From: Hymenobacter sediminicola
Lineage (GTDB): Bacteria; Bacteroidota; Bacteroidia; Cytophagales; Hymenobacteraceae
DNA: 64,000 nt
Direction: 5' to 3'
Assembly: GCF_014250515.1 (NCBI RefSeq)
Contig: NZ_CP060202.1
Location: 2,043,001-2,107,000 of the forward strand
A program made the position numbers and the translations under genes. The notes under the pieces are model-generated. The model did no database searches, was not told the origin of the DNA, and saw nothing but the letters and a program-made list of their open reading frames with translations. Positions 935 to 9,945 of the stretch are shown here, piece after piece (position 1 is the first letter of the stretch; each line of letters opens with the position of its first letter).

Positions 935-1165
935 CTAGAGGCGGCCGGACCGCTTGGAACTGTACTTGGTTTTGCTACGGCTGGTCTTGCCGAAGTGGAA
1001 TAAACCCTTCTTTTTGCGGCCTTTGTACATTTTGTAGTTGGGGCGGTGCGTGTACGAGCGGCCGCTCATTTTGGCACGGGCGTAGGCACTTGGGCGGGCG
1101 GCCTCGGCCGTTTCCCCACCGCTTATCATGAGCAGCGCGAAGAGCAGAATCAGGATTCTGTACAT
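935..1165 (-). CDS. Small basic secreted protein, HRPNY family copy 1
   Basis: This is a 76-residue protein from the ATG at 1165. That start is chosen over an upstream alternative because it begins a clean signal peptide (MYRILILLFALLMISG, cleavage near AEA). The mature part is very basic, with the core 'HRPNYKMYKGRKKKGLFHFGK' broken into HRPNYKMYK and KKKGLFHFGK. A second gene at 8830-9075 carries the same core, so the two are paralogues. The long Lys/Arg tail suggests binding to an anionic partner such as nucleic acid or LPS, but that is inference only. It has its own terminator and no operon partner. Confidence 0.7.
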   Translation of the reverse strand: MYRILILLFALLMISGGETAEAARPSAYARAKMSGRSYTHRPNYKMYKGRKKKGLFHFGKTSRSKTKYSSKRSGRL

Positions 1166-1516
1166 GATGAAAACGGGTTGGTGTGCGCTTATAACTGCGG
1201 TGAAATAGAAAAAATTGCACAACCGAGTTTCGTCCCCGCATTTTATTAGCCATTTGTCTGCTGCTTCGCCCTAATCAGCACTAAGAATAGAAGCTCTGAC
1301 AGGAAGGAACAACCTTTATACACTTCTACTAATTCAGTTCTGGATTTAGCGCGTTAATGGTCTGATATATATGATTTTATGCGTGGATTTGCTGTTCATC
1401 CCCTGCAGACGGCAAAATGCAAGGAGCCGCTCAAAATTTAAAAAAGGATGAAAAGTGTGGCTTACCGTGTGGAATAGGAGCCACGGAGGCATCACAAGCA
1501 GACAATCTCCCTGCTT
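1166..1516. other. Intergenic gap between divergent genes
   Basis: This AT-richer stretch separates the small secreted gene from the divergent alpha-2-macroglobulin gene, so it should hold both promoters. I see no clear TANNTTTG box, repeat or RNA gene. An overlapping plus-strand frame starting near 1417 looks like a shadow of the large gene. Confidence 0.5.
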
Positions 1517-4500
1517 ATGCCGCTATTCCTACGCTCCCTCACCGTCGCGCTGCTGCTCTTGCTGCCTCTGGCGCTGCCCGCCCAGCAAAAGTTGCCTGCT
1601 GCCCGCCAGCACAGCTACCTCACCAAGGTTTTTCGCCTCACCGACGCCCAGACCCGGCAACTCTACGAAACCAGCCTTAGCCAGGCCCGGCGCGAGTTTT
1701 TCACCCAGCCCGTTGACTCGTTTCCGACGGACAGCCAGGCTGCTGGCCAGCGCCGGCCGTTGCCGCCGGGCTACTACCTGGTGGCCCATACCGAAGGCCC
1801 GCAACTGGTTTACTGGCTGCGGGCTGTTACGGACCGCCAGCTCATCGTGCTCGACAACCAAGTAGACCTTACGCTGCTTGTGCGCGACTCATTAGGCCGC
1901 CTGCTACCCGATGCTCAAGTGAGTTTGCCCAAGGGGCGCCGTGTGCCTTTCGATGTGGCTACGCGCACCTATCGGCTGCCGGGCAAAGCAGGCCGGGCCG
2001 GGCTGCTGGCCGTGGAGCAGGGTGGGCGCACCACGTATCACGCGCTGCAACAGACGTTCCCGTATGCCCAATCGGGAAGGCCGCAGTGGGCGTGGCGGCG
2101 CGTGCTGAACAGGGTCGTATATGGTTTTCCGCTGGGCTACCTCACGCGGCCAGTGCGCAAGCTGGTAGGGGAGCTGCGGCACGTTTCCTACGTAACTACT
2201 GGGCTGATTGGGCTGCTTCGCTCACCGTTCAGCGAAGACGTGCGTGACGAGCGGCAGAACCAGCGCGAAAACAAACGGGCCCAGCGCCCCCAGCAGTGGA
2301 CCGGCTTTATAGCCCTGAGCCAGCCCCGCTACCGCCCCGGCGACACGCTGCGCCTGAAGGCCCGCGTGCTGCGCCGCCGCGACGGCCGACCGTACCGGAA
2401 ACCAGTGGACCTGTGGCTGTCGAACACAGAGCGCACCAAACCCGTGACCCGGCTGCATCCCGTGCGGCCCGGTACCTATGAGTACACATTGCCGCTGTCC
2501 GATACGCTGGGTCTGCGTCTTGACCGGATCATAGAGGTACACCTCGACGACCCCAAACACGAAGACGCCGACGAAATCATCAGTGCCAGCTTCCGCTTTG
2601 AGGACTACGAACTGAAAAATACCCGCTACACCCTGCGCGCCGCCGAAACGCCCCACCGGCGCGGCACACCGCAGGCTCTGTTTCTGCGCGGGCAAGATGC
2701 CAACGAATTGAACCTGCTGGATGCGCGGGTGCGCCTGAGCGTGACGCCCGCCACTGTGGGCCGCTTCCCCGGCCGGCAGGTATTTGTGCCCGACACCCTC
2801 TGGACCCGCGCCCAGCCACTCGATGCTACCGGCGAAACCCGGCTCAACCTACCCGAAACGGCCCTGCCCGCCGCCAACTTCACCTATAGCGTGCAGGCAG
2901 CCTTTCTCAACGGCGACAACGAGCGGCGCACCCAGTCGGCTTCTGTTTCCTATGCGCTTGACCCCGGTGAACTGAAGCTGGAACTGCGCCACGACTCGCT
3001 GGTAGCCCGCTACGAAGTGCGTGGTGTGCAACAGCCTCGCCCCGCTACGCTGGAAACAGAAACCTTCAACTACCTCGGCACCATAGAGCGGCGCACCGAA
3101 ACCGTGCAGCTGCCGCTGGCCCGCCTCCTCGACGCCCGCGCTACCCACTACCGCCTCTCTGATACCGACGGCCACACCGAAACCGTCTACCTGAACACCA
3201 CCAACGCCGGTCTGCAGCTGCGCTCTGCCCGCAGCCACGATTCCATTGTGCTGGCCGCCGAAAACCCGCACCGCCTGCCGTTCTGGTATTACCTCTACCG
3301 CGGCAACGAGCTGGTGCAGCGCGGCTACGGCTCCGACCTCACGCTTGCCTTACCGGCGCCCGGCGCCGAGACATGGTATGTATCGATGCACTACTTCTGG
3401 GCCGGCCGGCTGCAAACCGCCGAATACAACGTACCGCTGCCCCAGCACCGCCTGCTGGTGCAGGCCGAGCAGCCCGATGTGGTATATCCGGGGCAGCGCG
3501 TGAAGCTCCGCTACACCGTCACGGATGGCGGCGGCCGGCCCGTGCCCGACGCTGACCTTACGGCTTATGCTCACACCAGCAAGTTTGAGGAAGACGAAGC
3601 GCCGGAACTGCCCGATTTTGAGCCGCCGGTGGCCGGCCGACTGTCGCTGCGGCGGTTTGGGCTGGGAGCAGGGTTCGAGAACCAGACCGCGCAAACCGGC
3701 CGGCAAAAGCTGGAGTGGGGCGCGTGGCGCAAGCAGCTGGGCCTCGATTCGCTGCGGTTCTATCATTTTCTGTACCCCGACTACGGCGCGTTCTACGAGT
3801 ACCAGACCGCTCCAGGTGGCATCACCCAAATTTCGCCTTTCGTCGTGGATTCGGGGCGGGTGCAGCCGGCCGTGGCGGTGTACGTGGATGGCCTGCCGGT
3901 TTTTGTGGCGGCCGTGAATAGCGAAGAGCCTTTCGCACTGGTGGCCGACAGTGGCCGGCACACCGTAGCCATCCGCACACCCGACCGTCTTGTGTCGCTG
4001 CACGATGTGTACCTGCGCCACCTGCATAAGCTTACGCTCAGCATCGACCCCAACCGGCCCTGCCACGAACTGACCGTAGAAAAACGTGGGCCCTTGACCC
4101 GTCAGGAACAGGAAGAACTACAACGCTTTCTGATCCTGGTCGATAAAAACCAGCTTGATGAGCGGGTGCTGCTGCGCCAGGGCAACCGCCTGCAGCCACT
4201 GGGGGCCGGCCGGCCGGCGTTGGAGCGCAACTCTGGCACCACCAGCTACAGCTATGCCTCCTACAACCGCTACCACAACAGCACTTTCCACCTCGGCGGC
4301 CCCTTCCAGCCCGATTCGGTGCTGCTGCGCCGTACCGACGAGCTGCGCCAGAAATTTCTGCTCGAACCCAACTACCGCTACACCTTCGAGCCGGGCCTGC
4401 TAAAGCTGCGTTGCGCCCAGGGCAACGAGTTCGGTGGGCTGTCGGCTGCGGCCAGCTTTGCGCCACTGCCCTTCGCCGATTTCGCCTACACCGAGGCTGA

Positions 4501-7500
4501 TATGAAGCCGCAGCCATCCACCAATTACTACCGGGCCCCTAGTCCTGAACCTGTCATTAGTACCCCCCAGAGTACGCCTATAGGCCAGGGCCGCCTGATT
4601 GTTCGCCTGCCTGAGCCCACCGCCAACCCGCACGAAAGCCTGCCTCCGGTACGGTATTCGCTCGTTACGCAGCCCGGCAATGCCAAGTTTGTGCGGCTGG
4701 AGCGTGGCCTGCCCCCAACCATTCATGCCCTGCCCGCCGGCCGCTACCGCGTGGCCCTGCTGCTGGCCGATAGCACGGTGCTGGCTCCCGACGCCGACCT
4801 TCGCGTTCAGCCCAATGGTGCCACCTACGTGCAGCTGGAGCGGGCAGATCAGCTGCCAAAAAGCACGGCCGCTCAGGCGCTGCGCCGACGCTTTGTACGG
4901 TTGGTCCGTGAGCGGCTGCCCAAGCCGGTGCCACCTTCCGCTCAGGAAATTCGCGAAGCCCGCCGCGAAATAATGGTTACCACGCCCGTAATACCACAAC
5001 CCGGCTGGCGTGTGCAGCGTGGGCGGGTCGAGGACAAGCACTCCGGCGAAGGCCTGCCCGGCGTGACGGTGCTGCTGAAAGGCACTACCACCGGAACCAG
5101 TACGAATGCCGACGGCAGCTTCGCCCTGGCTGTGCCACCGACTGGCGGCGTGCTGACGTTTTCTTATATCGGCTACGTGAGCCTGGAGCGAATACTTGAT
5201 AGCCGGGACATCATGGTAGGTCTGGAAACTGACTCTAAGCAACTCAGCGAAGTGGTAGTGACGGGATACGGCGCGCCGCAAAGCCGCCACGAAATCACCG
5301 GTTCTGTGTCCACAATCAATAGTTCCGCTTTGCAAGGCCGGGCTGCTGGCGTTGCCATAACCGGGCAAACTTCCGGCTCATCGACTATCATGATTCGGGG
5401 CTCGGCCACCATGAGCGGTGGCAATGGGCCACTGCTTATTGTCGATGGATTGCCGTTTACGGGCAAGCAGACTGATATTAACCCCGATGATATTGCCAAC
5501 TTAAAGGTGCTACGCGGGGCCGAAGCCGCCGCTACATTCGGCTCGCGAGGTGCCAACGGCGTCATCATCATCCGTACCAAATCCGGTATTGGCGGCCAGA
5601 CGGCGCTGGGCCTCAAACCCGACCAGTCGGTTGGCCCCGACGGACAGCCCAGCAATGGGCGCGACCCGCGCCTGGCGTTGCGCCGCCGCTTCTCCGACTC
5701 CGGCTGGTGGCGTCCTACGCTCGTCACCGACCAGCAGGGCCGTGCCAGCACCGAAGTGGTGGTGCCCGACGACATTACCGGCTGGGACACTTTCGTGCTG
5801 GCCTCCGACGACCACGCCCGTACCGGCACGTTCACCAGTCTCATGCGCTCCTTTAAGGCGGTGCTGGGTGAGTTAGCCGCGCCGCGCTTCCTCATCCAGG
5901 GCGACCGGGCCCAGCTCATCGGCAAATCCCTTAACTACCTCCCCGACACAGCGCAGGTCACAACCAGCTTTCGGGTGGGTGAGGGGCCAGCCCGCACCCA
6001 GCGCCACCAGCTTGTCACGGCTGTGCTCGATACGCTTACCATCACCGCGCCTGCTAACGTAGACTCGGTGCAGGTGAGCTTTAGCCTCGCGCAACCCAAT
6101 GGGTATCAGGATGGAGAGTTGCGCAACATTCCGGTGTTGCCGGCCGGCACGCGGGAGCGGGTGGGCAGCTTCGTCGTTCTCACGGCCTCCGATACCACCC
6201 TTACGCTGCCCGTGCGCCCTGAATTGGGCAACGTAACCGTGCGCCTGGAAAGTGACCCGCTGCCCACGCTACTCGACGAAATCCAGCACGTGCAGCGTTA
6301 TGCCTACCTCTGCAACGAGCAGGCCGCCTCCAAGCTCAAAACGGTGCTGCTGGAGCAACGAATTCGAGTGGCGTTGCAGCAGGAATTCAAAGGTGAAAAG
6401 GATGTGAACCGCCTTATCCGGCACCTGCTGCGTGGCCGCCATCAGCCCGAAGGCCTATGGGGCACCTGGCCCACGTCGCCGGTAAGTCCCTGGGCCTCGG
6501 TGCACGTAGTGGAGGCGCTGTTGGAAGCCGAGAAGCAGGGCTATACGGTGAAGTTCGACCGGAATGCACTCCGCAGCTACCTGCTCAAGCAGCTCGATTA
6601 CGCCTTTGCCGATGCCACCATTCGGGCGTCGCTGGCGGCCACGCCGGCGGGCCGCCACCTCGATGCGTTGTATTTCCGCACTGACGACGACCGGATCCGG
6701 CTGCTGCAAGTGCTCCGCCACCTCGGAGCTCAGCCTGATTTCCGGAGCTACGTGGCGCGGCTGGAGCGCGAGCAGAAGGGCCGTCAGCCTCTCGACCGGT
6801 ACCTGGCCCTCACCAATCTGCGGCAGCAATTGGGCCTGCCATTTCAGCTCGATACACTGCGCCGCTACCGGTTGCGCAACGAGCTGGGCGGCGCATTCTA
6901 TGCCGATACATTGCGCCTGGGCTCTTTCTACCGCTATCTGCTGCCCGACCGGATTGGCAATACGCTGCTGGCTTACCGGCTGCTGCGGGCCAAAGGCAGC
7001 CAGGAGGCCGAACTGACGCGCATCCGTACATTTCTGCTGCAGCAGCGGCGCAACGGTAGCCATTGGAGCAGTACCTACGAAGCGGCTCAAATCCTGGAAA
7101 CCATTGTGCCCGACCTACTGGTGCCAGGCGGCAATGGCCTGGTGGCTCGTGCCCGGCTTAGCGGTCTGCTCACCGAGGACGTGCGCACGTTTCCGTTTGA
7201 AGTGAAGGTTTCAGCTGCCACCGGGCCGCTCATCCTGCATAAGGAAGGAGGGCTGCCGGTCTATGCTACTGCCTATCAGTCGTTCTGGAACGCCGCTCCC
7301 GAGCCCAAAGCCGCACCGTTTGTCGTTAGTACGACGCTGGCCGGGCAAGTGGGGAACCGCGTAAAGCTGCGTGCCGGTCAGCCTACGGAATTAGTTGTGA
7401 CTGTAGACGTGAAGGCCGAAGCTCGCTACGTACTGCTCGAAGTGCCTATTCCGGCTGGTTGTTCTTACGGCGAAAAGGCACCTGGCAACTATTTCGAGGT

Positions 7501-7690
7501 ACACCGCGAATACCTTCGCCATCAGGTTGGCATCTTTATGGATGTGCTGCCGGTGGGGCGCCATACGTTCCGGGTAGCGTTGCAGCCGCGCTACCGGGGC
7601 CGTTACACCGTCAATCCGGCCAAAGCCGAACTGATGTACTTCCCCACCAGATTCGGCCGCTCAGCCAGCAAGCAGGCTGTAGTGGAGTAG
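1517..7690 (+). CDS. Alpha-2-macroglobulin with embedded TonB plug
   Basis: A 2057-residue exported protein with signal peptide MPLFLRSLTVALLLLLPLALPA. Macroglobulin-type strands follow: 'RYRPGDTLRLKARVL' near residue 270 and 'YPGQRVKLRYTVTD' near 656. A CarboxypepD_reg-like domain (about 1168-1243, 'GLPGVTVLLKGTTTGTSTN') runs straight into a SusC-type plug (about 1243-1356: 'SEVVVTGYG', 'LLIVDGLPF', 'GANGVIIIRTKSG'), but no beta-barrel follows. The A2M domain resumes at about 1393 ('SGWWRPTLVTDQQGRA', 'VPDDITGWDTF'). The thioester motif C-N-E-Q is intact at Cys1599-Gln1602, followed by a helical thioester domain and a C-terminal receptor-binding-like domain. Bacterial A2Ms trap proteases covalently in the envelope; that role is inferred. 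The plug cassette sits where the bait region normally lies. Confidence 0.88.
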   Translation: MPLFLRSLTVALLLLLPLALPAQQKLPAARQHSYLTKVFRLTDAQTRQLYETSLSQARREFFTQPVDSFPTDSQAAGQRRPLPPGYYLVAHTEGPQLVYWLRAVTDRQLIVLDNQVDLTLLVRDSLGRLLPDAQVSLPKGRRVPFDVATRTYRLPGKAGRAGLLAVEQGGRTTYHALQQTFPYAQSGRPQWAWRRVLNRVVYGFPLGYLTRPVRKLVGELRHVSYVTTGLIGLLRSPFSEDVRDERQNQRENKRAQRPQQWTGFIALSQPRYRPGDTLRLKARVLRRRDGRPYRKPVDLWLSNTERTKPVTRLHPVRPGTYEYTLPLSDTLGLRLDRIIEVHLDDPKHEDADEIISASFRFEDYELKNTRYTLRAAETPHRRGTPQALFLRGQDANELNLLDARVRLSVTPATVGRFPGRQVFVPDTLWTRAQPLDATGETRLNLPETALPAANFTYSVQAAFLNGDNERRTQSASVSYALDPGELKLELRHDSLVARYEVRGVQQPRPATLETETFNYLGTIERRTETVQLPLARLLDARATHYRLSDTDGHTETVYLNTTNAGLQLRSARSHDSIVLAAENPHRLPFWYYLYRGNELVQRGYGSDLTLALPAPGAETWYVSMHYFWAGRLQTAEYNVPLPQHRLLVQAEQPDVVYPGQRVKLRYTVTDGGGRPVPDADLTAYAHTSKFEEDEAPELPDFEPPVAGRLSLRRFGLGAGFENQTAQTGRQKLEWGAWRKQLGLDSLRFYHFLYPDYGAFYEYQTAPGGITQISPFVVDSGRVQPAVAVYVDGLPVFVAAVNSEEPFALVADSGRHTVAIRTPDRLVSLHDVYLRHLHKLTLSIDPNRPCHELTVEKRGPLTRQEQEELQRFLILVDKNQLDERVLLRQGNRLQPLGAGRPALERNSGTTSYSYASYNRYHNSTFHLGGPFQPDSVLLRRTDELRQKFLLEPNYRYTFEPGLLKLRCAQGNEFGGLSAAASFAPLPFADFAYTEADMKPQPSTNYYRAPSPEPVISTPQSTPIGQGRLIVRLPEPTANPHESLPPVRYSLVTQPGNAKFVRLERGLPPTIHALPAGRYRVALLLADSTVLAPDADLRVQPNGATYVQLERADQLPKSTAAQALRRRFVRLVRERLPKPVPPSAQEIREARREIMVTTPVIPQPGWRVQRGRVEDKHSGEGLPGVTVLLKGTTTGTSTNADGSFALAVPPTGGVLTFSYIGYVSLERILDSRDIMVGLETDSKQLSEVVVTGYGAPQSRHEITGSVSTINSSALQGRAAGVAITGQTSGSSTIMIRGSATMSGGNGPLLIVDGLPFTGKQTDINPDDIANLKVLRGAEAAATFGSRGANGVIIIRTKSGIGGQTALGLKPDQSVGPDGQPSNGRDPRLALRRRFSDSGWWRPTLVTDQQGRASTEVVVPDDITGWDTFVLASDDHARTGTFTSLMRSFKAVLGELAAPRFLIQGDRAQLIGKSLNYLPDTAQVTTSFRVGEGPARTQRHQLVTAVLDTLTITAPANVDSVQVSFSLAQPNGYQDGELRNIPVLPAGTRERVGSFVVLTASDTTLTLPVRPELGNVTVRLESDPLPTLLDEIQHVQRYAYLCNEQAASKLKTVLLEQRIRVALQQEFKGEKDVNRLIRHLLRGRHQPEGLWGTWPTSPVSPWASVHVVEALLEAEKQGYTVKFDRNALRSYLLKQLDYAFADATIRASLAATPAGRHLDALYFRTDDDRIRLLQVLRHLGAQPDFRSYVARLEREQKGRQPLDRYLALTNLRQQLGLPFQLDTLRRYRLRNELGGAFYADTLRLGSFYRYLLPDRIGNTLLAYRLLRAKGSQEAELTRIRTFLLQQRRNGSHWSSTYEAAQILETIVPDLLVPGGNGLVARARLSGLLTEDVRTFPFEVKVSAATGPLILHKEGGLPVYATAYQSFWNAAPEPKAAPFVVSTTLAGQVGNRVKLRAGQPTELVVTVDVKAEARYVLLEVPIPAGCSYGEKAPGNYFEVHREYLRHQVGIFMDVLPVGRHTFRVALQPRYRGRYTVNPAKAELMYFPTRFGRSASKQAVVE

Positions 7691-7802
7691 GGGAAGCGCC
7701 GGGCAAACGCTCCGCTGTTTCTTGCCATCCGAAGTCAAGGTGGGGCGCCATCTGTCACGGGGCAAACGGCTACCTTTCGGCCCCATTTTATCGGTCTATT
7801 CT

Positions 7803-8756
7803 ATGTTCAGTCTTCCTTCTACCGAACTCCAAGTTCGGGCCGCCTTACTCGGCCTTGCTACCGGCGACGCGCTGGGGGTGCCGGTGGAGTTTCAGAGCCG
7901 CGCCGCCCGCCACACCGACCCCGTAGTAAGTATGCGCGCCTATGGCACGCACCACCAGCCTGCCGGCACCTGGTCTGACGATGCCTCGCTTACGTTTTGT
8001 CTCGCTGAAGCTATTGCGGACGGTTTCACCGTCAGAAAACTGGCCGAAAACTGCTGCCACTGGTATTACAAGAACTTGTGGACACCACACGGCTCTGTCT
8101 TTGATATCGGTATCACGACGCGGGAAGCAATTCAGCGCCTGAAAGCGGATGACGACCTGACTTTGGCCGGTGGCACCGACGAGTTCAGCAATGGCAACGG
8201 AGCACTGATGCGTATTCTGCCGCTGGCATTCTACAAAACGGATCTGCCCCTAGAAAGCCGCTTCCAGTTGATTTGGGACGTGTCGGCCGTTACACACGGC
8301 CATATTCGCTCGGCTATTGCCTGCTGGCTGTATCTGGAAATGGCGCGCCATCTACGGGCCGGCCTCACACCCACAGTAGCGTATGCAGAATTGTGCCGGG
8401 AAGCCCCGGCACAACTGTCGCGCCTGCACGTTCCCGCAAAAGAAATTGACCAATTCGAACGTATCCTCAGCGGCCAACTACCTCAAGTAGCAGTATCGGC
8501 TATCAGCAGCGGTGGCTATGTGGTGCATACCCTTGAAGCGGCCCTATGGTGCCTGCTCCACTATTCCAGCTACGCCGAAACGGTGCTGGCGGCCGTCAAC
8601 CTCGGCGATGATACCGATACCACCGGTGCTGTAGTAGGCGGACTAGCCGGGCTGCAGTACGGAGAGGCTGCTATTCCGGCAGAGTGGCTGGCGGCCTTGG
8701 CCCGCCGTGCTGATATCGAAGACCTCTGCCAGCGTATGGCGGTTGTCAGCCGCTAG
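7803..8756 (+). CDS. ADP-ribosylglycohydrolase family protein
   Basis: 317 residues from the ATG at 7803, preferred over an upstream TTG because family similarity begins at once ('LRAALLGLATGDALGVPVEF'-like). The N-terminal 'GDALG' and 'TWSDDASLTF' segments and the C-terminal 'GDDTDTTGAVVGGLAG' provide the aspartates that bind the two Mg ions in DraG/ARH3 enzymes. Such enzymes hydrolyse ADP-ribose from proteins, nucleic acids or small molecules; the substrate here cannot be told. No ADP-ribosyltransferase partner is visible nearby. No signal peptide, so cytoplasmic. Confidence 0.9.
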   Translation: MFSLPSTELQVRAALLGLATGDALGVPVEFQSRAARHTDPVVSMRAYGTHHQPAGTWSDDASLTFCLAEAIADGFTVRKLAENCCHWYYKNLWTPHGSVFDIGITTREAIQRLKADDDLTLAGGTDEFSNGNGALMRILPLAFYKTDLPLESRFQLIWDVSAVTHGHIRSAIACWLYLEMARHLRAGLTPTVAYAELCREAPAQLSRLHVPAKEIDQFERILSGQLPQVAVSAISSGGYVVHTLEAALWCLLHYSSYAETVLAAVNLGDDTDTTGAVVGGLAGLQYGEAAIPAEWLAALARRADIEDLCQRMAVVSR

Positions 8757-8829: not shown

Positions 8830-9075
8830 TTATTTGCCGAAAGACAAGAGGCGGAAAATGCCTTTTTTCTTCTTGTCGGCTTTGTAATAGGTGTAATTCG
8901 GGCGGTGCAGAATCGGCTTCGACTTGAAAATGGGCGCTGCTTCCGGAGTAGCGGCGGCATCCAGTTGGCCAGTCGGGGCCGTAATGGCAAGCAGGGCCGT
9001 AGAGGAACCCGCAGCAGCTTGCGACAGGCCAACGACAGCAATCAGGGCGGGTATTAACAGTACTGATTTTCTCAT
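8830..9075 (-). CDS. Small secreted protein, HRPNY family copy 2
   Basis: 81 residues from the ATG at 9075, which starts a signal peptide (MRKSVLLIPALIAVVGLSQAAAG). A short Ala/Thr/Pro-rich spacer follows, then a basic end with 'ILHRPNYTYYK' and 'KKKKGIFRLL..FGK'. The end aligns with the core of the protein at 935-1165: HRPNY, then YK, then KKKG[LI]F and FGK. Unlike copy 1 it stops right after FGK and lacks the extra Lys/Ser/Arg tail. Function unknown. The shared lipid-export-style N-terminus and basic C-terminus point to a periplasmic or surface role. Confidence 0.7.
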   Translation of the reverse strand: MRKSVLLIPALIAVVGLSQAAAGSSTALLAITAPTGQLDAAATPEAAPIFKSKPILHRPNYTYYKADKKKKGIFRLLSFGK

Positions 9076-9390
9076 AGGTGGTTGGTTGTTAAGGGTGAAC
9101 CGATGTCCTAAGATATTCAGCCTGACTTCTCTTTGCAATTATTTAATCCTAAAATAACAAAAAAATATACAATGAATAGTATTGATGATATATTAAAACA
9201 GCTACAAAATCATGCCTTAAGACAATTTAGGAGTGTATTATGGTCGTTTTTAGTTCTTGAAAAAAGTTGCCTTCTCAAACAGGCAATAGTTGCTGCACAT
9301 CAGAGCCAGCGAAACCAAATAGAGTGTTGATGGACGTTGAGAAAAGATGGAAAAGCAAAAGGCCCTTCAGATTTCTCTGAAGGGCCTTTG
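9076..9390. other. AT-rich intergenic region
   Basis: Low-GC DNA between a small secreted gene and the first tRNA-Asp. A 65-codon plus-strand open frame (9133-9330) has no recognisable features and I do not call it. The only structured element is the terminator hairpin at its right end. Confidence 0.5.
9357..9389 (-). terminator. tRNA-Asp terminator, copy 1
   Basis: The stem AAAGGCCCTTCAGA pairs with TCTGAAGGGCCTTT and ends in T residues on the minus strand, right after the tRNA 3' end. Confidence 0.85.
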
Positions 9391-9464
9391 CGGTCCGGAC
9401 GGGACTCGAACCCGCGACCTCCGCCGTGACAGGGCGGCATTCTAACCAACTGAACTACCGAACC
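9391..9464 (-). tRNA. tRNA-Asp (GTC), copy 1
   Basis: Read on the minus strand, the 74-nt sequence folds as a tRNA. The acceptor stem GGTTCGG pairs with CCGGACC, discriminator G; the D arm is GTTCAGTTGGTTAGAAT; the anticodon loop CTGTCAC gives GTC; the T loop is GTTCGAGTC. CCA is not encoded. Identical to the copy at 9872-9945. Confidence 0.97.
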
Positions 9465-9871: not shown

Positions 9872-9945
9872 CGGTCCGGACGGGACTCGAACCCGCGACC
9901 TCCGCCGTGACAGGGCGGCATTCTAACCAACTGAACTACCGAACC
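9872..9945 (-). tRNA. tRNA-Asp (GTC), copy 2
   Basis: Identical in all 74 positions to the copy at 9391-9464, anticodon GTC. It has its own promoter and terminator, so the two copies appear to be separate transcription units. Confidence 0.97.

Follow-up and report, generated by a model that had tools for sequence, protein, structure and literature searches.

Why would a bacterial alpha-2-macroglobulin (A2M) carry part of a SusC-type TonB receptor next to its bait, and what could a protease trap and a TonB-dependent gate have to do with each other? The question is raised by a gene in the window, the 64,000-nucleotide stretch of the Hymenobacter sediminicola genome (4.51 Mb, one contig) analysed here. 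Here we show that the gene encodes a bacterial A2M of type I (thioester) that looks exported. Its bait-region insert closes with a SusC-type cassette of NTE, Ton box and plug, followed by a hypervariable linker, and a family of Bacteroidota A2Ms carries this cassette as an inherited trait. Our best reading, a tentative one, is that the cassette may link the trap to TonB or SusC, docking it at TonB-dependent gates. Little is known about what bacterial A2Ms guard or how their baits are selected, and a widespread family with a recognisable short motif in its bait insert, EVVVxGYG, makes that question directly testable.

A SusC-type cassette in the bait-region insert

The A2M gene is a single intact frame without internal stop, laid out as follows.

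1517-7690 (+): A2M gene, 2057 aa; probable Sec signal peptide at aa ~1-22 (by eye), no lipobox match by regular expression
3455-3616 (+): first half of the host macroglobulin (MG) domain, which corresponds to MG6 in human and MG8 in bacterial A2Ms, aa 647-700; boundaries placed from model strands and alignment ranges
3617-4852 (+): initial portion of the insert, aa 701-1112; modelled as mostly beta-rich, no Pfam match
4853-5008 (+): variable linker 1, aa 1113-1164; 1.22 bits
5012-5236 (+): NTE (CarboxypepD_reg) domain of SusC type, aa 1166-1240; from Pfam, SusC HMMs and fold match
5243-5272 (+): Ton box LSEVVVTGYG, aa 1243-1252; motif identified from the accessible text of PMC7782687
5273-5422 (+): predicted disordered segment, aa 1253-1302, with plug motifs GRAAGV (1274-1279) and IRGSAT (1293-1298)
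5423-5587 (+): plug core with SusC signature, aa 1303-1357
5588-5668 (+): hypervariable linker 2, aa 1358-1384 (27 aa); 0.93 bits, pLDDT <50
5669-5965 (+): second half of the host MG domain and the A2M (PF00207) domain, aa 1385-1483
6311-6322 (+): thioester motif CNEQ, aa 1599-1602
7355-7645 (+): bMG10 domain (Pfam), aa 1947-2043

Four Pfam families exceed their curated cut-offs: CarbopepD_reg_2 (aa 1168-1248, E 3.8e-16), Plug (aa 1269-1349, E 1.8e-9), A2M (aa 1398-1483, E 3.4e-11) and bMG10 (aa 1947-2043, E 1.3e-12). MG2 falls below its cut-off, and no barrel family appears among the Pfam matches up to E 0.1. The match to the SusC/RagA subfamily model TIGR04056 is confined to aa 1168-1362 (model positions 4-211 of 981, E 3.7e-58) and scores 197.7 bits against a cut-off of 368.25, short of a full-length receptor with its beta-barrel, the frame continuing into the A2M domain; the SusC signature TIGR04057 is narrowly below its cut-off (44.6 against 46.2 bits). 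In phmmer, solved SusC chains match aa 1168-1366 (5t3r, E 1.6e-29). The TIGR04056 range and the phmmer matches thus identify the cassette as the N-terminal part of SusC, with the NTE, Ton box and plug that define SusC/RagA proteins all present. At 5020-5590 (aa 1168-1358), as the C-terminal part of an insert of ~680-700 aa, it is the N-terminal half of a SusC receptor at the bait-region site, with no barrel and a shortened plug. The initial annotation had likewise reported a CarboxypepD_reg domain and a TonB plug without barrel in one A2M frame.

It had also placed the cassette at the bait position, and had named structure prediction as a check. A model of aa 630-1560 (49 sequences, mean pLDDT 74, low pTM of 0.38) aligns through its residues 12-917 (aa ~641-1544), over 211-225 residues, with Salmonella A2M 846-1119 and E. 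coli A2M 855-1128 (VIA: 4u48, Z 15.8, 211 aligned; 5a42, Z 14.7; rmsd range 4.9-6.7), leaving out the greater part of the ~700-residue insert. According to the accessible part of PMC4498604, the bait of E. coli A2M is the disordered stretch Arg923-Leu942, its bait domain lying within MG8, and the aligned E. coli stretch brackets this bait. The alignment bears the placement out, with the cassette not away from the bait site, and suggests that the bait-region domain is inserted in the MG domain before PF00207, at a break point estimated from the model.

The NTE fold aligns with the SusC NTE 9hfj (Z 14.2, rmsd 1.1, 79 residues); all VIA matches listed for the cassette lie on the NTE part and none informs on the plug fold. 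In the model of aa 630-1560, pLDDT falls below 50 at aa 1242-1302 and 1357-1393 and the plug core is of moderate confidence only. Modelled alone (58 sequences), the cassette reaches pLDDT 95-98 in its NTE blocks and 85-89 in the plug core, the Ton-box region being only partly unfolded, and Foldseek matches this model to the SusC chains 8a9y, 5fq6 and others in the PDB at E about 1e-3. The further suggestion that the cassette may replace or shield the bait holds as to its position in the bait-region insert; replacement itself is not needed, since the separate hypervariable linker 2 lies between the cassette and the next conserved strand. Judged by its sequence, linker 2 (aa 1358-1384) would be the likeliest cleavable bait.

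The genome encodes two further A2M open frames, of 2135 and 1886 aa, with no NTE or plug match in the latter or in the 500 aa before the A2M domain of the former. The 1886-aa A2M (C1:3650807) adjoins a PbpC-like gene recognised by eye. Beside the window's A2M there is no PBP1C neighbour of the yfhM-pbpC type: directly downstream lies an ADP-ribosylglycohydrolase (7722-8756 (+), Pfam 3.5e-72), and the upstream frame has no Pfam family. A downstream frame that looks similar by eye recurs in a cluster of 18 Hymenobacter-type loci. The A2M gene and its neighbour are flanked by genes for two small basic proteins, at 938-1270 (-) and 8830-9138 (-), which resemble each other in stretches of the form HRPNYxxYKxxKKKGxF; relatives of the former make up a cluster of 14 loci upstream of A2M. 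Two tRNA genes (9391-9464 and 9872-9945, both (-)), ~400 bases apart, have identical Rfam scores.

Inheritance of the cassette in a family of Bacteroidota A2Ms

Searching 61 Hymenobacter genomes with the whole protein gave 30 loci matched across nearly its full length, one with an internal TAG, in the own and 29 other genomes; three more (G010, G041, G058) have split matches, and in the remaining 28 only the cassette part matches, in other genes. The gene is thus patchy and dispensable in the genus (33/61). All 30 near-full loci hold the cassette, with 91-100% of its 192 positions filled, and several vary the GYG end of the Ton box (VVVTALG or VVVTGLG, for example). The thioester, which the initial annotation had called intact, is CNEQ in 28 of the 30 loci and CHEQ in two. 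The other proviso of the initial annotation, an assembly join of two genes, can be ruled out for practical purposes: 29 more Hymenobacter genomes, and genomes of many genera, have the cassette at this position, leaving a chimeric assembly or mis-joined genes with next to no probability. One Hymenobacter copy (L101 in G041, about 5950-6450) is frameshifted before the NTE and has a compressed cassette of NTE, Ton box, GQVAGI and IRGTAS without plug end.

For the wider searches the profile was restricted to aa ~1384-2057, because selection for the cassette was to be avoided. It matched 54/291 sampled genomes of the order and, at E<=1e-20 and with other A2M families included, 36/392 sampled genomes of the phylum. 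It also matched 80 named loci; the named near relatives of the window's A2M are in Hymenobacter, and others of the 80 are in Pontibacter, Rufibacter, Mucilaginibacter, Pedobacter, Chitinophaga, Marinilabilia and Saprospiraceae and Flavobacteriaceae MAGs. Annotated relatives are named 'alpha-2-macroglobulin family protein' (Hymenobacter, Aureibacter) or 'carboxypeptidase-like regulatory domain-containing protein' (Aureibacter). The cassette alone matches 156 plasmid records; of eight listed, six are annotated as TonB receptors and two are unannotated.

Family 1 comprises 124 frames (L007, the window's gene; L067-L105, L108, L110-L112 and L137-L216, with L106 left out), or 115 once L101, L104 and L208, which have no usable upstream part, and six duplicates are dropped. 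Scored with HMMs from 13 SusCs of this genome, 103 of the 115 have NTE, Ton box and plug, four NTE and plug (L097, L163, L191 and L206, below the Ton-box threshold), five NTE and Ton box, one the NTE and two nothing. At least the NTE is thus kept in 113/115 proteins, nearly all sought without the cassette, and the cassette is an inherited feature of this family. One genus (L076-L080) has almost no plug but retains the NTE together with a strand resembling the Ton box, which in L077 scores below threshold. A lipobox-like match occurs in 2/112 family-1 frames, the window's A2M not among them.

Family 2, with a PYECSEQ-like thioester, combines 30 loci from one search giving the best PF00207 scores with a further 15, and its proportions should therefore not be read as population estimates. 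Here (n=44) NTE, Ton box and plug occur together in seven proteins, NTE and Ton box in five, the Ton box alone in 12, the plug alone in two and the NTE in one; one or more parts are thus present in 27/44, and 17, including the family-2 A2M of this genome, have none. The Ton box therefore outlives the plug, in the 12 and five such proteins of family 2 and in five of 115 in family 1. Among 18 further A2Ms none reaches the Ton-box threshold and four have an NTE-like domain. Outside the class, the bait site of L113, L114, L121 and L122 is occupied by a CarboxypepD_reg-like domain with a long charged linker and no Ton box, and L092 combines two CarboxypepD_reg stretches with a Teneurin TTR-like match in one insert.

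Three genera that belong to a single family of the same order (L096/L217, L105/L219, L220) have a barrel-like outer-membrane domain at the bait site in place of NTE and plug; a fourth genus of that family keeps them (L218/L098). The assignments are DUF6089 at 3.3e-9 (over cut-off) and OMP_b-brl at 1.2e-4 (under cut-off) in L096, OMP_b-brl at 1e-4 (under cut-off) in L220, and likeness by eye in L105/L219, which have no Pfam match there; L096 and L105 are the two family-1 proteins without cassette parts, and L220 stands outside that count. A further frame of 1850 aa (G074:C22:4719-4967), with a partial DUF6089 match, is possibly a second barrel-bearing A2M.

Such barrels bear on the idea that the plug half itself enters a SusC barrel, or sits beneath it, with the barrel's own plug displaced and the A2M guarding or corking the open pore. 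A plug core nearly at the SusC signature cut-off and predicted to fold alone (pLDDT 85-89), together with the barrel-like domain that takes its place in some relatives, would fit this. We nevertheless consider it improbable: the plug is shortened, with its first part predicted disordered, and it is missing from many family-2 relatives that keep the Ton box. For the preferred reading, docking at TonB-dependent gates, the barrel-like domain in three genera is a second sign that the site faces the outer membrane.

Selection on the Ton box and origin of the cassette

Which part of the cassette matters most? The initial annotation had spoken of a plug cassette; judged by occurrence and sequence conservation, it is the Ton box that is kept best, ahead of the plug taken as a unit. 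With a 10-mer score built from 13 SusCs (threshold >=12; n=115, 45 and 19 under the score's own duplicate rule), a Ton box lies within 300 aa before the A2M domain in 108/115 family-1 proteins against 2/115 in the rest of the same frames, before that domain in 25/45 family-2 proteins against 0/45 elsewhere, and in 0/19 other A2Ms at either place. In weighted bits over 77 family-1 sequences, where gaps lower the values, no other 10-mer of the insert is as well conserved as the Ton box (3.51 bits, placing it 27th of 2017 across the protein). By region, the Ton box (aa 1242-1252) has 3.37 bits, the plug core (here aa 1275-1357) 2.51, the NTE 2.30 and the whole protein 2.24, with linker 1 at 1.22 and linker 2, at 0.93, the lowest of 13 regions; other well conserved parts are the C-terminal 1950-2050 (3.00) and MG6b/MG7 (2.91). 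Pooled over seven Hymenobacter pairs (L215 used twice), pN/pS is lowest of 11 regions in the Ton box, at 0.12, a rough value from 12 codons, followed by MG6b/7 and the C-terminal part (both 0.14), TED (0.19), plug core (0.26), NTE (0.35), linker 2 (0.43) and the post-Ton-box segment (0.46).

The cassette also stands out in its silent changes: at fourfold sites it has diverged more than its flanks in 17/18 disjoint pairs (0.41 and 0.30 on average), with a maximum at aa 1231-1290 (0.48) in a sliding profile that stays <=0.36 outside aa 1191-1370. This fits cassette exchange; fourfold GC is 0.69 in the cassette, 0.70 in SusC NTE-plug segments and 0.79-0.82 in the cassette's flanks, and the NTE-plug part has the lower value in 12/13 SusC genes too, so that weaker codon selection could also explain the peak. 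Topology does not single out the cassette: the rest-of-gene tree is incompatible with the cassette (p-AU 0.002, lnL difference 69) and also with 4/4 control segments (p 0.001-0.024, lnL differences 30-51), and the result is therefore not specific to it. In a free tree of 86/122 cassettes (37 of 73 from family 1, 43 SusC, six from family 2), A2M against SusC needs five changes. Many independent captures from SusC, which this tree suggests, were considered and dropped: uniting all A2M cassettes in one clade is compatible with the data (AU p 0.218), and likelihood is higher when family 1 forms one clade. One family-2 cassette (L258) shares 57% identity with a SusC encoded in its genome (L312), against 36-40% with its two best A2M relatives, a grouping with SH-aLRT 99 in the free tree. 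The genome studied here has 52 SusC matches in all, 13 full-length and one split being over the SusC cut-off.

SusC DNA is thus abundant, and the bait insert might simply tolerate any domain, having received this one by chance and without function of its own. The cassette's SusC-like fourfold GC would suit such a passenger, as would the ~400 aa of other domains already in the insert, the barrel-like and NTE-only inserts elsewhere and the patchiness of the gene itself. Against it stand the near-universal NTE of family 1, purifying selection on Ton box and plug core, and presence in two A2M families, and we find it doubtful.

Refreshed cassettes, which the silent divergence and the 57%-identical SusC of L258 would allow, are also what one might expect if the insert displayed exposed SusC plug motifs as a decoy, so that a protease or other attacker of TonB-dependent receptors would cut the trap instead and spring it. 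In 35 plug-less family-2 inserts, scanned with motif patterns chosen after the sequences had been seen, GRVAGV-like motifs occur in 10 (0.0 in shuffles; that of L229 lies in the NTE), IRGxSS-like ones in eight (0.1) and Ton-box-like ones in 14 (0.5). A plug motif precedes the Ton box in seven family-2 proteins, the reverse of the SusC order, which suggests that what is retained here is short motifs rather than a fold, and one Hymenobacter copy shows the compressed series Ton box - GQVAGI - IRGTAS. Such retained motifs are better explained by mimicry than by TonB docking, which leaves the persistence of GRVAGV and IRGxSS in plug-less, partly reordered form unexplained. Baits are usually variable, however, and the Ton box is strongly constrained; the usual bait place, adjoining the next A2M strand, is occupied by a separate hypervariable linker, and the topology test for exchange was not specific to the cassette. 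We know of no protease of the kind required, and hold this decoy to be unlikely, though less so than a chance passenger.

A proposed docking of the trap at TonB-dependent gates

The reading we prefer, docking of the trap at TonB-dependent gates, is the most probable of those considered while falling short of an even chance; the decoy comes next, then the passenger, insertion under a SusC barrel and, last by far, artefact, with the remainder left to something else. In this mechanism the Ton box, exposed in the disordered segment between NTE and plug core, would be bound by the C-terminal domain of TonB or compete for it, and NTE and plug parts might refine the docking. The trap would thereby be held under SusC receptors, wide outer-membrane openings where an intruding protease could appear. 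Cleavage at a flexible site within the insert, linker 2 being the likeliest, would release the thioester, and the protease would be captured.

By analogy, the Ton box is of a type needed in the SusC Bt1763, where deletion or all-alanine replacement of 82-DEVVVTG-88 gives a levan growth defect like that of SusD deletion; in the isolated SusC NTE, the Ton box end is flexible by NMR (both from the accessible text of PMC7782687). That the Ton box here is retained, constrained and predicted unfolded points the same way. Counted against docking are the patchy gene, the 17/44 family-2 proteins without parts, the varying GYG end, the low pTM (0.38) and a plug core of only moderate confidence. Nor is there a shared flank: among the 14 largest flank gene clusters none is common to Hymenobacter-type and other loci, 13 holding only Hymenobacter-type loci and one seven others, in a comparison that hardly covers upstream neighbours because upstream flanks are mostly <1 kb.

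A bolder version, which we rate as unlikely, would wire the trap into the TonB energy system: with a working Ton box in the bait, the force that opens receptors would position the trap, or even spring or reset it, and the plug-derived motifs would serve as an integrated receptor mimic. If true, A2M-type protease traps and TonB-driven transport, unlinked so far in the literature searched, would be joined. Searches combining macroglobulin with TonB or plug terms found no paper, other literature searches likewise gave no description of such an A2M among the papers listed, and the word macroglobulin is absent from the accessible text of PMC12611786.

Among known systems, Pseudomonas MagD, a type-II A2M, is alike in being tied to envelope partners; it differs in having no thioester and in that its partners are encoded in the MagD operon, and the word TonB is absent from the part of its description available (PMC5764988). 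Type-I bacterial A2Ms (E. coli ECAM, Salmonella SaA2M; YfhM) share the CxEQ thioester, the A2M and bMG10 domains and a bait insert in the same MG domain, and trapping of proteases after bait cleavage is putative for the window's A2M. It differs from them in the lack of a visible lipobox, in not lying beside PbpC and in its ~680-aa bait insert with a SusC cassette. With the SusC/RagA TonB-dependent transporters (Bt1763 and others) the cassette shares NTE, Ton box and plug core, and TonB binding through its Ton box is likewise putative; unlike them, it has no beta-barrel, a shortened plug segment between Ton box and GRVAGV, and a place within another protein.
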